Below are positions 55,279 to 60,721 of a DNA stretch of 64,000 bases, piece after piece. The DNA is from Bacteroidota bacterium (lineage in GTDB: Bacteria > Bacteroidota > Rhodothermia > JANXDC01). The stretch lies in assembly GCA_025059945.1 (NCBI GenBank), contig JANXDC010000004.1:1-64000 (forward strand). Direction: 5' to 3'. Position 1 is the stretch's first letter, and each line of letters begins with the position of its first letter. The notes beneath the pieces were generated by a model that saw only the letters and a program-made list of their open reading frames with translations, was not told where the DNA came from and did no database searches. A program made the translations under genes and the position numbers.

Positions 55279-56718
55279 ATGAGAGCACCTCTCAGGTCCA
55301 TACGGCAATGGTACGCGGAGCTGCCGCGGGTCCACCCTGTCCGCCTGACCTTGGAGTATGCGCGACGATTCTTCTTGAACACCCCCAAGCCGGGCCTCGG
55401 CTTCGATGTGGATCTGTTTCTTTCGGGGCGTCTAAAACGTTTGGAGCGCCGGATGCTTCGGGTGCGCGCTTTGGGGGGGCTGGGCGGACTGAGCATAGGC
55501 GGAATTTTGACCTGGCCAGAGGGGGTCTTCTTGTGGGCGCTTGCGCTGATCTATGTAGCTGGGTTGTGGGGGCTTTGGCGCAAGATACGGCTAGCCTATC
55601 GACCCGTACGCGCACGATGGTTTCTAGGGGCCTGGGATGGGCTATGCGGGTTGGGGTTGTTCACCTTGGAGACGGGGTCCTCCTTCTGGGGATGGGGGCT
55701 TTTGGGACTTTTTCTGTATGTCTTTTACGCCGATGCCCGCCTAGTGGGGGCTTTGGGCGCCGTTTGGGGCTTGGGATTAATCGGGCTTGGCGGTCTAGCT
55801 CTTGAAGAAGGGCTACTCTGGGTCGCGGGTGTGCTTTTGGCCTCTGCTACGGCCTACAGTCTGCGCCATCAGTGGGCGCATTACGTGCAACTACAGCACC
55901 GGCAAACAACCGATGCGCTGCGCTCGAATTTTGAGGCGCTTCGCCGCGGTGAACTAGAGCGGCTTGATGCAATGAAGCGCCAGTTTATCACGCTGCTTTC
56001 GCATGAGCTGCGCACCCCTGTTACCCCGATCACGAGTGCCCTGGAGATGATGGGCCCCTACGTCCGAACGCAGGCCGATCTGCAAGAGCTATGGAGCATC
56101 GCCTCAGAAGCCGCCGGTCGGCTCAGCCGGCTTGTGCAGGATTACACGCAGCTGGCCGAGCTGCTCCTAGAGGAGCAGCCTGTGTCGCTCTGGGAGGCCG
56201 ACGTGGGCGCCATAGCCCGCGCCGTGGTGCAGCGGGTCTTGCCCAGCGTTCAGAGCCAAGGGCATGAGATGCAGTGTGTTATTCCCGACTCCCCGCTTCT
56301 GGCGCACACCAATTCGCCCTTGCTGGAGACGATCCTGGAGGCGCTTTTTCGGCGCGTTCTGGGGGCGCCTCAGGAAAGAATCCGGCTTCGCTTGGAGCTT
56401 GCGGCGCACAGTCCAGGAGAGCTATCCATTCGGTTTTGGGATTCCTTTACGCTCGTCTCGGAATCCGATGTGATCGCCCTGGAGGATCCCTTCGGCCTCA
56501 CAGCGGAGCGGGCCTACTTTACCCGGGCTAGCGGGCTGGAACTTACCCTGGTTCGCCGTGCTCTGGAGCGATTGCGAGGGCGTTGGACCATACGCAGCCA
56601 GGCCGGATGGGGTACGGAGGTAACCCTGTATATACCCCGCAACCCCGTAGCCGATCGGCACGGACCGGAGAAAAGTCGTCTGCGCTTTGCTTTCCTAGGT
56701 TCTGCGTCGAGCGGCTAG
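55279..56718 (+). CDS. Orphan histidine-kinase-like membrane protein with degenerate ATPase domain
   Basis: The protein has 479 residues. Four to six hydrophobic segments lie between about 65 and 195. The dimerisation domain is intact, LDAMKRQFITLLSHELRTPVTPITSALEMM, with phospho-acceptor His242 in the HELRTP box. The ATP-binding half is odd: the expected N-box has no Asn (TILEALFRRVLG at 351-362), and the G1 box lacks the glycine pattern (FWDSFTLVSESD). The G2 region survives (SGLELTLVRRALERLRG and GWGTEVTLYIP). So it may bind ATP poorly and act as a sensor or phosphatase. No response regulator is adjacent. Its last 4 bases overlap aroC tail-to-tail. Confidence 0.8.
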   Translation: MRAPLRSIRQWYAELPRVHPVRLTLEYARRFFLNTPKPGLGFDVDLFLSGRLKRLERRMLRVRALGGLGGLSIGGILTWPEGVFLWALALIYVAGLWGLWRKIRLAYRPVRARWFLGAWDGLCGLGLFTLETGSSFWGWGLLGLFLYVFYADARLVGALGAVWGLGLIGLGGLALEEGLLWVAGVLLASATAYSLRHQWAHYVQLQHRQTTDALRSNFEALRRGELERLDAMKRQFITLLSHELRTPVTPITSALEMMGPYVRTQADLQELWSIASEAAGRLSRLVQDYTQLAELLLEEQPVSLWEADVGAIARAVVQRVLPSVQSQGHEMQCVIPDSPLLAHTNSPLLETILEALFRRVLGAPQERIRLRLELAAHSPGELSIRFWDSFTLVSESDVIALEDPFGLTAERAYFTRASGLELTLVRRALERLRGRWTIRSQAGWGTEVTLYIPRNPVADRHGPEKSRLRFAFLGSASSG

Positions 56719-57923
56719 GCGAAACCGGCGTAGGCGCGCGCCTGCAGCGCGGAAAACCGCTCCCGGATCTCCTCCAGGTGGTCTCCCCCGGTTACCTCCA
56801 GCAGAGCCTGGGCCAAGCAGAAGGCCACGACCGCCTCGGCGATCACGGCCGCAGCGGGCACGGTGCAGATATCGGAGCGCTCATAGCGGGTGCGTGTGCG
56901 CTGGCGCGTGCGCACGTCTACGGTCCATAGGGCGTTGGAGGCGATGGTCGGGATGGGCTTCATGGCCGCGCGCAACACGATGGGCGCGCCCGTGGAGACC
57001 CCGCCTTCGATGCCCCCGGACCGGTTGGTGCGGCGCGCAAAGCGGCCCTCCTGGAGCACGATCTCATCGTGGGCCTCTGAGCCATAACGGGCGGCTAGCT
57101 CACAACCGTAGCCGATCTCCACGGCTTTGATGGCCTGAATAGACATGACGGCCTGAGCCAGCCGGCCGTCGAGTTTGCGATCCCAGTGCACATATGAGCC
57201 CAGGCCTGGCGGCAGGCCCGTGACGAGCACCTCAAAGACCCCTCCTAGGGAGTCCCGGCGGCTTTTGGCGGTTTCGATCGCGGCCAGCATCTGGGCCTCC
57301 AGCTCCGGATCAAGACAGCGAACAGGCGAGGCGTCAGCGGCCTCCGCTACGGCCCCGGCCCCCCGTTCCAGGAGCGGAGCCGTGCGGGCCTCGACGTGCG
57401 CGCGATCCGAGTAGGCCGCAGAACCGATCTGCAGCACGTGGCTGCCGATCTGCACGCCCAGCGCCTCCAAGAGGGCGCGCGCCACGGAGCCGCAGGCCAC
57501 GCGCATGGCGGTTTCCCGGGCGCTGGCGCGCTCGATTACGGGGCGCAGGTCATCGAAGCCGTACTTCTGCCAGCCCACCAGGTCCGCATGCCCCGGCCGA
57601 GGCACAGTGACCGGAGGGGCGGGATCCGGGACGGGCTCCAGAGCCATAACGTGAGCCCAGTTGACGGCGTCGCGCCGAAAGACGGCGTTTTCGATCAGAA
57701 GGGCCACGGGGCTGCCGATCGTGCGGCCATAGCGGAGACCGGATAGGATGCGAACCGTGTCGGTTTCGAGCCTCATCCGCCCTCCACGACCATAGCCCAG
57801 CTGCCGACGCTGTAGGTGCCGTTGGATGAACTCGGCCTCCAGGGGCACCCCGGCCGGCATGCCTTCGACGATGCCCACAAGCGCCGGCCCGTGCGATTCC
57901 CCCGCGGTCAGATAGCGCAACAT
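56715..57923 (-). CDS. aroC: Chorismate synthase
   Basis: This FMN-dependent enzyme makes chorismate from EPSP. The 402 residues are typical, slightly long. MLRYLTAGESHGPALVGIVEGMPAGVPL, RRQLGYGRGGRMRLETDTVRILSGLRYGRTIGSPVALLIEN, GHADLVGWQKYGFDDLRPVIERASARETAMRVACG and RTNRSGGIEGGVSTGAPIVLRAAMKPI carry the FMN and substrate-binding residues including the conserved His and Arg. It lies 13 bases downstream of the UbiA fusion gene, a useful pairing because chorismate is the precursor of menaquinone. Confidence 0.97.
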   Translation of the reverse strand: MLRYLTAGESHGPALVGIVEGMPAGVPLEAEFIQRHLQRRQLGYGRGGRMRLETDTVRILSGLRYGRTIGSPVALLIENAVFRRDAVNWAHVMALEPVPDPAPPVTVPRPGHADLVGWQKYGFDDLRPVIERASARETAMRVACGSVARALLEALGVQIGSHVLQIGSAAYSDRAHVEARTAPLLERGAGAVAEAADASPVRCLDPELEAQMLAAIETAKSRRDSLGGVFEVLVTGLPPGLGSYVHWDRKLDGRLAQAVMSIQAIKAVEIGYGCELAARYGSEAHDEIVLQEGRFARRTNRSGGIEGGVSTGAPIVLRAAMKPIPTIASNALWTVDVRTRQRTRTRYERSDICTVPAAAVIAEAVVAFCLAQALLEVTGGDHLEEIRERFSALQARAYAGFA

Positions 57924-57936
57924 CGGCGCAAACCCG

Positions 57937-59292
57937 TTAGCTCAAAAGGCGATCCAGAAATAGCCCCCCGATCAGGGCGGCCGAGAAGTACAGATGCAGC
58001 TGGGCGCTGAGCAGATCCAAGAAGCTAAAGGCCACGCGGGCGTGATTGAAGGCCACCTGGATGTTACGCGCGGCCACAGGCAACGTGGCCCATACGGCCA
58101 GGGCCCAGACGGGAAGCCATCCGGCCGCCACGAAGGCCGTGCTCAGCGCGTAAGCGCCCGCAAGCAGGGCCACATAATACCAAGCCGACCCCCGAGGGCC
58201 TAAAAGCCCGGCTAGGGTTCGGTAGCCCGCGCTTCGATCTTCCAGGATATCCCGGTAGTTGTTGCCGTGCAGAACGGCGATCGTCAATAGCCCAAGCGGC
58301 ACCGAAAGCCAAACCGGATCCGAAGCCAGCGCGCCCGTTTGCACATAATAGGAGCCGAGGGCCATCAGAGGGCCGAAGGCCAGAAAAACGGCTATGTCGC
58401 CTAGAGCCCGGTACTTGAGCCCAACCGGAGGGGCGGTGTAGAAGACCCCCAAGGCCGCGCCGGCTAGGGCAAGATAGCCGACCGCCGGCCCGCTTCGAAG
58501 GGCCAACCAGGCGCCGATGAGCGCGGCCAAAACAAGCAGCAACGCGCCAAAGGCCCGATGGAGCTGAGGCCGCATGAGCTTGTCGACAAGCACGCGGCTA
58601 GAGCCGAGCACGCGCCAGGTGTCTGCGCCGCGGCGCCAGTCCATGTAATCGCTCAGCACGTTGATTCCGGCATGCGCCAGAAGCGCCCCTAGAAGCGTAA
58701 GGCCCAAAAGCGGCCAAGAGAGCTGGGGGGCCAGCATCGCCCCCAGCAGCACCGGGGCTAAGGTGACGGTAAAGGAAAACGGTCGGACCGCCTTCCAATA
58801 GAGGCGCCAACTGGAATGGCGATCCTTGAGCTCCGTGCGGAATAGCTCCAGAACGTCCTCGGTCACCTCCACCTCGGCGCGCGGCTTCCAGAACTTCGTA
58901 AAGTCGGAAACAAAAAGCTTCGTGGGCCGGATCCGAAAAACCGTGACCCCGGGGATAAGCTTCGCATACAGCACAAGCTCCAGGGCCTTGCGAAAGATGT
59001 AATGCCGCTCGGGCCGATCTTCGATGGGACCCAGCGGTTCGGCGATGCCCTTGCCCTGCACGAAGCGATCCGGCACCCCGCGCTCGATCACGAAGGTCAC
59101 CTCCGGGTTCTCGAGTAGGTTGCGATAGTTGCGGCCCTGCTCCAGGGCTGTATAAAGGTAGCCGTCGTGCTCGGCGAAGTAGGCCTTGCCGGCCCAAACG
59201 CCCGAGGAACCTTGCGTAACGAGGGTAAAAGCCTTATTCTCCCGAAAAACCTGCTTGGCTACGCGCAAAGCGTCTCGATCGGTTGCCGACAT
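57937..59292 (-). CDS. PNPOx-like domain fused to UbiA/MenA-type prenyltransferase
   Basis: The protein has 451 residues. Residues 1-about 155 form a pyridoxamine-phosphate-oxidase-like split barrel: FTLVTQGSSGVWAGKAYFAEHDGYLYTALEQGRNYRNLLENPEVTFVIERG and a C-terminal VTVFRIRPTKLFVSDF. From about 165 is a UbiA membrane domain with eight or nine helices. Its first Asp motif is NVLSDYMDW (211-219) and the second NNYRDILED (344-352), both complete. It probably prenylates an aromatic acceptor such as 1,4-dihydroxy-2-naphthoate; aroC next to it supports a quinone role. The flavin or haem ligand of the first domain is unknown. Confidence 0.87.
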   Translation of the reverse strand: MSATDRDALRVAKQVFRENKAFTLVTQGSSGVWAGKAYFAEHDGYLYTALEQGRNYRNLLENPEVTFVIERGVPDRFVQGKGIAEPLGPIEDRPERHYIFRKALELVLYAKLIPGVTVFRIRPTKLFVSDFTKFWKPRAEVEVTEDVLELFRTELKDRHSSWRLYWKAVRPFSFTVTLAPVLLGAMLAPQLSWPLLGLTLLGALLAHAGINVLSDYMDWRRGADTWRVLGSSRVLVDKLMRPQLHRAFGALLLVLAALIGAWLALRSGPAVGYLALAGAALGVFYTAPPVGLKYRALGDIAVFLAFGPLMALGSYYVQTGALASDPVWLSVPLGLLTIAVLHGNNYRDILEDRSAGYRTLAGLLGPRGSAWYYVALLAGAYALSTAFVAAGWLPVWALAVWATLPVAARNIQVAFNHARVAFSFLDLLSAQLHLYFSAALIGGLFLDRLLS

Positions 59293-60259
59293 AGATACCC
59301 CCTACTTGTATTGCAATGTTGCATGAACCTCGTTAAGAAATGCGAGCGTTCCCAGTAAAAAACAACGCCCCGGCCCCCAAAAGCTCAGCATGGGGCGATG
59401 CTAGATGCGGCCTTTGGGGGCATCGGATGAGAGGCCTCGCTGAACAGTCCAACCGGGCTTGTGCCCCCTGGCGCCGGCCCCACGGGCGCGGTGGAGCGGT
59501 TTAGCAGCTTCCGGCTCTACGAGTGCGTGCCTTTAGCGCAGGCTTTGTGGGGCGATACCAAGCCGGTGTGGGAATTGCTCGCCCCAAGGCGGAAACGCTA
59601 AGGCTAAAACAGGCTCGGGAGGGGCTCTCGCTGCACCCTATGAGGCGTCTGCATGAGGGCCGTTTTGCGCTCCATGAGGCCGCGTGCGTTCCGGTATCTG
59701 CACCCCTTAGCTGCTTCCGATCGGGCCGATGGCCGCAGTCTGGGCTTGGGTCTGCCCGGCCATTTGCTCGGATGCGCGACGCATGCGGCCATCCATAAGG
59801 TGCTGGCTATGGTTGCCGTATGGCCGATGCCTCTTGTAAGGAGGGGAGGCATGCGCGAGCCGATTATTTCGCCTCTCCGTCTGCGACACGGGAGGGCTAG
59901 GTCGCGCGCACGCGTAGTTTCTGAGGGTGCACCGTCGCTACAAGCGGCCTAAGAGGCTGCCTTATAAGCTAAGAGCTGCGCACCCGGGAGGTGCGATATC
60001 CGTATGGCTTGCCCAAGCGGCGATTTTGATTGTCTACGCCAGGAGCCAGGCCCTCAGGCGTTCTCTTCGCCGGGGCAGGGCGATTGCTCCCTCCGGGGTG
60101 TAGCCGCAAAGCGAAGGGGAAAGGCGGGATGTTTTGGCATAAAAAACTTTAAAGGTCTTAAAAGCTAAAAATTCACAAAACCTTCATGCACGACCTTTCC
60201 TCATTCGGGTATATTAAGAATCGCCTGCTTAAAAGAACTCAAGCGAAAGGGGTTGACGT
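59293..60259. other. 967-base region without a recognisable gene
   Basis: The left 830 bases are GC-rich with scattered short frames on both strands. One plus-strand stretch, 59431-59601, is open and protein-like in composition (it ends ...WELLAPRRKR) but has no good start. A minus-strand stretch near 60020-60120 has similarly coherent but short reading (...LPRRRERLRAWLLA then stop). Neither can be assigned, and they could be decayed gene fragments. I looked for and did not find RNase P RNA, tmRNA and SRP RNA cores. From about 60135 to 60240 the sequence is strikingly AT-rich and probably holds the cytochrome gene promoter. Confidence 0.4.
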
Positions 60260-60721
60260 ATGCGTCTCTTATTGGCTGCGGGTTTGATCCTTGGGTTGGG
60301 CGTATGGATAGGCTGCGGACGAGGGGGTTCCCAGGCAGAGCCTTCGGTTGAGAAGGGGGGAAGTGCTCTGGGAGCGCGGCCCGTTGAGCTTGAGATCGGG
60401 CCGATCAAGGAGCGGATGCAGTTGGGGCCGGTTGATCCCGCCTTGGCCGATCAGGGCAAGGCGCTTTTTGAACAGAAATGCACCAGTTGTCATAAGCTCG
60501 ATATGCGTTATGTGGGCCCCCCGCTGCGGGAGGTCGCGCTTGTGCGCTCACCGGAGTACATCATGAACATAATCTTAAACCCCGAGGGCATGCAGGAGCG
60601 GCATCCGGTGGTCAAGCAACTTGTCGAAGAGTACATGACCAAGATGACGTTTCAGAACGTAACGCAGCAGGAGGCGCGAGCCATCTTGGAGTTTCTGCGG
60701 CAGGCCGCGGGAGAGGGTTGA
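60260..60721 (+). CDS. Monohaem cytochrome c lipoprotein
   Basis: The protein has 153 residues. The lipoprotein signal ends in GVWIGC, with Cys19 lipidated. The haem site is CTSCH at 74-78. GPPLREVALVRSPEYIMNIILNPEGM is the middle of a class I cytochrome c fold, and the axial Met is probably Met126 or Met129 in YMTKM. A final helix VTQQEARAILEFLRQ is standard. It should carry electrons at the outer face of a membrane, perhaps for the molybdoenzyme encoded nearby on the other strand; that link is inference. AAAGGGG precedes the ATG and an intrinsic terminator follows. Confidence 0.92.
   Translation: MRLLLAAGLILGLGVWIGCGRGGSQAEPSVEKGGSALGARPVELEIGPIKERMQLGPVDPALADQGKALFEQKCTSCHKLDMRYVGPPLREVALVRSPEYIMNIILNPEGMQERHPVVKQLVEEYMTKMTFQNVTQQEARAILEFLRQAAGEG

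Follow-up and report, generated by a model that had tools for sequence, protein, structure and literature searches.

A gene in the window (the whole 64,000-nucleotide stretch of DNA that was analysed), which belongs to a bacterium related to hot-spring species, encodes a PNPOx-like split barrel joined to a UbiA-family membrane prenyltransferase, an architecture that is real, conserved across at least 15 genomes and apparently undescribed. The kind of enzyme, UbiA/UBIAD1, is known; the fusion appears to be new. The prenyltransferase half is more like UBIAD1, which makes vitamin K2 in humans, than like MenA, its usual counterpart in bacteria, and the fusion is probably not an ordinary MenA. The reading that we favor, at a probability of roughly 0.4, is that of a bifunctional reductive quinone prenyltransferase in which the barrel acts as a reductase feeding a UBIAD1-type prenyltransferase; its cofactor, redox step, head group, and physiological role are those that we infer below.

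Architecture, distribution, and neighborhood of the fusion

The fusion gene (57937..59292, minus strand) is a single open frame of 451 codons (451 aa) with an ATG start, zero internal stops, and a likely ribosome-binding site, GGGGGT (59297..59302, minus strand), four bases 5' of the ATG. Searched as a whole, the protein matches Pfam PNPOx_N at residues 13-126 (E 8.8e-5) and UbiA at residues 178-406 (E 2.8e-32, above the cut-off), the PF01040 score of 112 bits against a cut-off of 34.2 placing it in the UbiA superfamily. The PNPOx-like split-barrel domain covers residues ~8-140 (58873..59271, minus strand) by Pfam PF01243, AlphaFold, Foldseek, and conservation, and is followed by a variable linker of lower identity than both neighboring domains (residues ~141-160; 58813..58872, minus strand) and by the UbiA-family membrane domain (residues ~161-445; 57958..58812, minus strand), delimited by Pfam UbiA and by the likeness to UBIAD1 in 8djk in both sequence and fold. 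Taken alone, the window's barrel scores just under the gathering score of PF01243 (26.4 against 28.1 bits, E 1e-5), and this family is matched by all 13 fusion barrels tested (E <= 1, best E 1.3e-6). Mean pairwise identity across 15 fusions is 77% in the barrel, 67% in the prenyltransferase half, and 46% in the linker; the barrel is thus the better conserved half, which argues that it is functional.

By prediction, the N-terminal part folds as a split barrel and the membrane domain resembles UBIAD1. AlphaFold models, run with relatives from fetched loci, had a mean pLDDT of 81 for the full protein and 85 for the barrel alone. In Foldseek the barrel model matched PDB split barrels with probability 1.00 and TM ~0.7, led by 2iab (E 2.5e-8, TM 0.72) and followed by 2i02, the heme-binding MSMEG_6519 and At3g03890, 6vna, HutZ, PhzG, and PNP oxidase, while the full model best matched UBIAD1 in 8djk (E 4.8e-10, 32% identity) and then barrel entries and archaeal UbiA enzymes. 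By sequence, UBIAD1 8djk was the sole PDB chain matched at E <= 1e-5 (E 6.1e-33), and the barrel sequence gave nothing significant against the PDB beyond a weak match to 3f7e, named PNP oxidase-related, its matches coming from the fold search alone.

Full-length fusions are present in 14 other genomes, 15 with that of the window, namely KatS3mg041, of the same genus, and 13 genomes of the Kapabacteria group. Nine genome_contigs records hold both domains: that of KatS3mg041 is 83% identical, and the other eight, MAGs under the names Kapaibacterium, Kapabacteria, Bacteroidota or Chlorobiota, are 69-75% identical; five further fusions, at ~58-60% identity, are in the class of the single-contig Kapabacterium G041. 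The 38 other searched genomes of the window's class gave a match of ~30% identity only, nearly always to the membrane domain alone, and a plasmid search gave zero matches with the barrel and, with the whole protein, matches to the prenyltransferase half only. Since the fusion is full length in 14 other genomes, it is neither chance nor a frameshift artefact, and the possibility that two genes were joined by a sequencing error, which the sequence-only reading had itself raised, is ruled out. That reading proposed a split-barrel flavin-type domain fused N-terminally to a quinone-type UbiA prenyltransferase, which Pfam, AlphaFold/Foldseek, and the 14 further genomes bear out, and did not recognize the architecture as an established one; a literature search found no description of it, and nothing suggests that the fusion is common or characterized. 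The fusions form one clade in the tree (support 100/99), with the window's genus inside it next to Kapabacteria (subgroup support 97/89). From this position we infer a single fusion event, probably in Kapabacteria, and a subsequent horizontal transfer that would have run toward the window's genus.

Immediately downstream is aroC, which had been placed beside the fusion from the sequence and encodes chorismate synthase (56715..57923, minus strand; Pfam PF01264, E 7.3e-118); it starts 13 bp from the fusion gene and is probably in the same operon, and KatS3mg041 (L024) has the same fusion-aroC order with a gap of 22 bp. A gene divergent from the fusion gene (60260-60721) encodes a protein with a cytochrome c domain and what appears to be a lipoprotein signal, and a cytochrome c-like gene has the same place and orientation in KatS3mg041. 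In futalosine Kapabacteria (L138, L139, L140) the fusion adjoins a CDP-alcohol phosphatidyltransferase-like gene and a LutABC-like cluster, and in four loci (L026, L027, L029, L031) genes for 4-hydroxyphenylpyruvate dioxygenase (HPPD) and a Glu/Leu/Phe-type dehydrogenase are found a few kb downstream. An Rce1-like CAAX protease gene (PF02517) adjoins the fusion gene at L032:6356-6991 and unfused kin at L154:9406-10041 and L159:9203-9787, which supports the orthology of fused and unfused genes.

A UBIAD1-like active site and the case for a built-in reductase

Active-site residues were compared in an alignment of 15 fusions, 17 unfused kin, three paralogues, UBIAD1, and 26 MenA, the last including the Thermomicrobium MenA from a menB-menA-menC cluster (L163). 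Both Asp motifs had been called intact from the sequence, and this stands for the Asp residues, D215, D218, D224, D348, and D352 being present in 15/15 fusions, but not for the first motif as a whole, which reads NxxSDxxD rather than the usual NxxNDxxD, with S214 in place of Asn in every fusion and in about half of the kin. This first Asp-rich motif (H207-D224, HAGINVLSDYMDWRRGAD; 58621..58674, minus strand) is unlike MenA at both H207 and S214. K293 and A296, in KYRALGD (residues 293-299; 58396..58416, minus strand), and H342, in the second Asp-rich motif (H342-D352, HGNNYRDILED; 58237..58269, minus strand), are the residues of UBIAD1. Together H207, K293, A296, and H342 are found in all 15 fusions and in UBIAD1 but in none of the 26 MenA, which have Gln, Ala/Gly, Gly/Pro, and mostly Val/Leu at these positions; conversely, Q207, A/G293, and G/P296 are common to all 26 MenA and absent from all 15 fusions. 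K293 is also present in 17/17 unfused kin and, in our own mapping, aligns with K181 of UBIAD1, which was among the positions tested in that enzyme (PMC4398444).

In the maximum-likelihood (ML) tree a branch with support 100/98 splits the 26 MenA from the fusions, their kin, and UBIAD1; UBIAD1 is itself a long branch, and the tree fixes its side alone, not its nesting. UBIAD1, the animal MK-4 synthase, is the closest solved structure to the fusion by sequence and fold, although it is eukaryotic, lacks a fused reductase domain, and is only ~30% identical. MenA shares with the fusion a UbiA branch by profile and the Asp motifs, but differs at the four diagnostic residues and occurs with MenD, as the fusion does not.

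Prenyl transfer to the naphthoquinone nucleus requires the hydroquinone. In the mechanism that we propose, the split barrel at the N-terminus, probably homodimeric with a putative FMN at its interface, would convert an oxidized (naphtho)quinone head group into its hydroquinone by reduction; the fused UbiA domain, a UBIAD1-type enzyme and not one of the DHNA/MenA type, would then attach an isoprenoid diphosphate to it. In the window's own genome, with its futalosine genes, the fusion may serve to recover quinone head groups or to exchange their side chains. UBIAD1 made no MK-4 unless DTT was added; on its authors' assumption, this reductant turns menadione into the hydroquinone (PMC4398444). 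Ddn, a split-barrel enzyme, reduces menaquinone (PMC8498797). Given that UBIAD1 needs a reductant and that split barrels such as Ddn can act on menaquinone, a built-in reductase is the most economical reading. Counting against it, heme rather than FMN is the ligand in several of the barrel's closest fold matches, and the unfused kin do without a barrel, a separate barrel gene having been sought in their 1.5-kb flanks and none found. The sequence-only reading had suggested a redox or flavin-prenyl step; the UBIAD1 requirement and the Ddn precedent make a redox step plausible, whereas a flavin-prenyl step of the UbiX type is not indicated, UbiX and UbiD being separate genes elsewhere in the same genome. 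Moreover, UbiE/MenG is kept in every fusion genome, and therefore an unmethylated acceptor fits better than menadione, whose salvage fits poorly; the product may still need methylation.

Two known systems come close to this arrangement. Ddn and the FDOR-A menaquinone reductases have the split-barrel fold in common with the fused barrel, and Ddn also shows the action on (mena)quinone that is proposed for it (PMC8498797), but they are stand-alone, F420-dependent proteins, unlike the barrel in its fused setting. Coq12 of S. pombe, a flavin-reductase-like CoQ protein of the split-barrel superfamily, is likewise tied to quinone synthesis, and its authors mention orthologs fused to prenyl transferase; it is, however, assigned to pfam01613, not PF01243, and acts upstream of PHB synthesis (PMC10279924).

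Quinone gene content and competing explanations

Family profile searches, on which all gene absences given here are based, show that the window's own genome has three UbiA-family genes, for heme o synthase (L001), an MqnP-like enzyme (L002), and the fusion, the MqnP-like gene adjoining an aminofutalosine-deaminase-like gene (L002, L080). MqnC and MqnE are found over their cut-offs, together with three PF02621 genes, MenG, and an MqnL-type decarboxylase, also over cut-off, beside UbiX; MenB and MenD are absent over cut-off. With a futalosine gene set and an MqnP-like enzyme of its own, this genome therefore appears to use the fusion as an extra prenyltransferase. MqnP, the prenyltransferase of the futalosine route to menaquinone, is of the UbiA superfamily too, but the fusion has no match to NCBIfam MqnP/TIGR01475, and a role as MqnP substitute is rejected in view of the separate MqnP-like gene.

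Elsewhere the picture differs. Neither MenD in any fusion genome nor MenB in the ten searched for it was found over cut-off; MqnC is present in 5/13 Kapabacteria-group fusion genomes, and the other eight have no MenB/MenD over cut-off, no MqnC, and absent or weak MqnA/D-family matches. UbiE is present even in fusion genomes where the fusion is the only MenA-like enzyme found. Over cut-off, MenD and MqnC are both missing from the eleven searched genomes with unfused kin, and four Kapabacteria-class genomes with an ordinary MenA have MenD. Counting fused and unfused UBIAD1-type genes together, 19 Kapabacteria-class genomes (G040-G047, G073, G063, G110, G137, G151, G157, G093, G102, G052, G138, G158) lack both MenD and MqnC over cut-off, with UbiE/MenG in all those tested. 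Many Kapabacteria thus appear, from these profile matches, to be without both known menaquinone routes; a literature search found nothing on menaquinone in Kapabacteria.

Such a pattern raises the possibility of an undescribed respiratory-quinone route of Kapabacteria, whose gene was acquired by the window's genus. A UBIAD1-type enzyme would here prenylate a head group supplied by other enzymes of that route, UbiE would methylate it, and the barrel would perform or support a redox step. Speaking for this are the eight Kapabacteria fusion genomes (two on single contigs) that keep UbiE although MenB/MenD are absent over cut-off, MqnC is missing, and MqnA/D-family matches are weak at best, and also the eleven genomes with unfused kin; in G041, moreover, genes that by eye are alternative-complex-III-like and cytochrome oxidase genes imply a quinone. 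On the other hand, futalosine genes occur in the window's genus and in five fusion genomes, the loci compared show no conserved set of possible head-group genes next to the fusion, and ordinary cross-feeding would equally explain the missing genes. Nor is a homogentisate (plastoquinone-like) origin of the head group, prompted by the HPPD genes near the fusion in four loci, supported in general: HPPD, above cut-off in the G041 copy (L135), has no match over cut-off in five fusion genomes and does occur in genomes with MenD; a methyl-plastoquinone route is rejected as well, the UbiE proteins tested scoring well under the MpqE cut-off. We regard a new route as unlikely. A shade less likely is its fullest form, in which the fusion and its unfused kin constitute a third respiratory-quinone route in Kapabacteria, with a head group that is neither Men nor futalosine and a built-in flavin reductase, acquired horizontally by the window's genus atop its futalosine route.

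Alternatively, the barrel might be no reductase at all but a heme- or ligand-binding sensor, HugZ/HutZ-like or CREG-like, controlling the prenyltransferase. Its Pfam match under the gathering score and the heme-binding split barrels among its top fold matches (MSMEG_6519, At3g03890, HutZ, HugZ) lend themselves to this explanation. In contrast to His-ligated heme enzymes with the split-barrel fold, however, the barrels of the 15 fusions contain no invariant His, which favors a flavin over HugZ-type heme without proving it; the top two matches, 2iab and 2i02, are FMN-type barrels. A sensor is accordingly doubtful in our estimation, and the reductase of the favored mechanism is retained.

Still more improbable is a plain MenA, a DHNA prenyltransferase carrying the barrel as an accessory, for which DHNA would be imported from neighboring bacteria. 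The best NCBIfam matches of the fusion are indeed DHNA polyprenyltransferases, its catalytic Asp residues are kept, UbiE/MenG is present, and aroC is adjacent; nevertheless, it misses every MenA equivalog cut-off (TIGR00751, 91.0 against 102.15; PRK06080.1-1, 151.5 against 277), and the residue signature common to the 26 MenA is replaced. The single-contig G041 has three MenA-like enzymes (L070, L077, L079) and no MenD/MenB over cut-off; besides the fusion, the three comprise an unfused paralogue of the UBIAD1 type and a MenA that passes the TIGR00751 cut-off (L070). The presence of this MenA alongside the fusion suggests that the two enzymes differ. DHNA, among the acceptors suggested from the sequence for an assay, is thus an unlikely substrate: in the window's own genome MenB and MenD are absent over cut-off and the futalosine route is present, with an MqnP-like enzyme besides the fusion, and the residues at the active site are of the UBIAD1 kind.

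If the favored reading of a reductive quinone prenyltransferase is true, the fusion would be a prenyltransferase with its own reductant-delivery domain, and one protein could prenylate an oxidized quinone head group. More broadly, these findings point to a bacterial UBIAD1-like group apart from MenA, and also to a group of bacteria many of whose genomes show no recognized way of making a respiratory quinone. If the fusion were annotated by its best hit, it would be labeled MenA, and both the UBIAD1-like group and the missing quinone route would be hidden.
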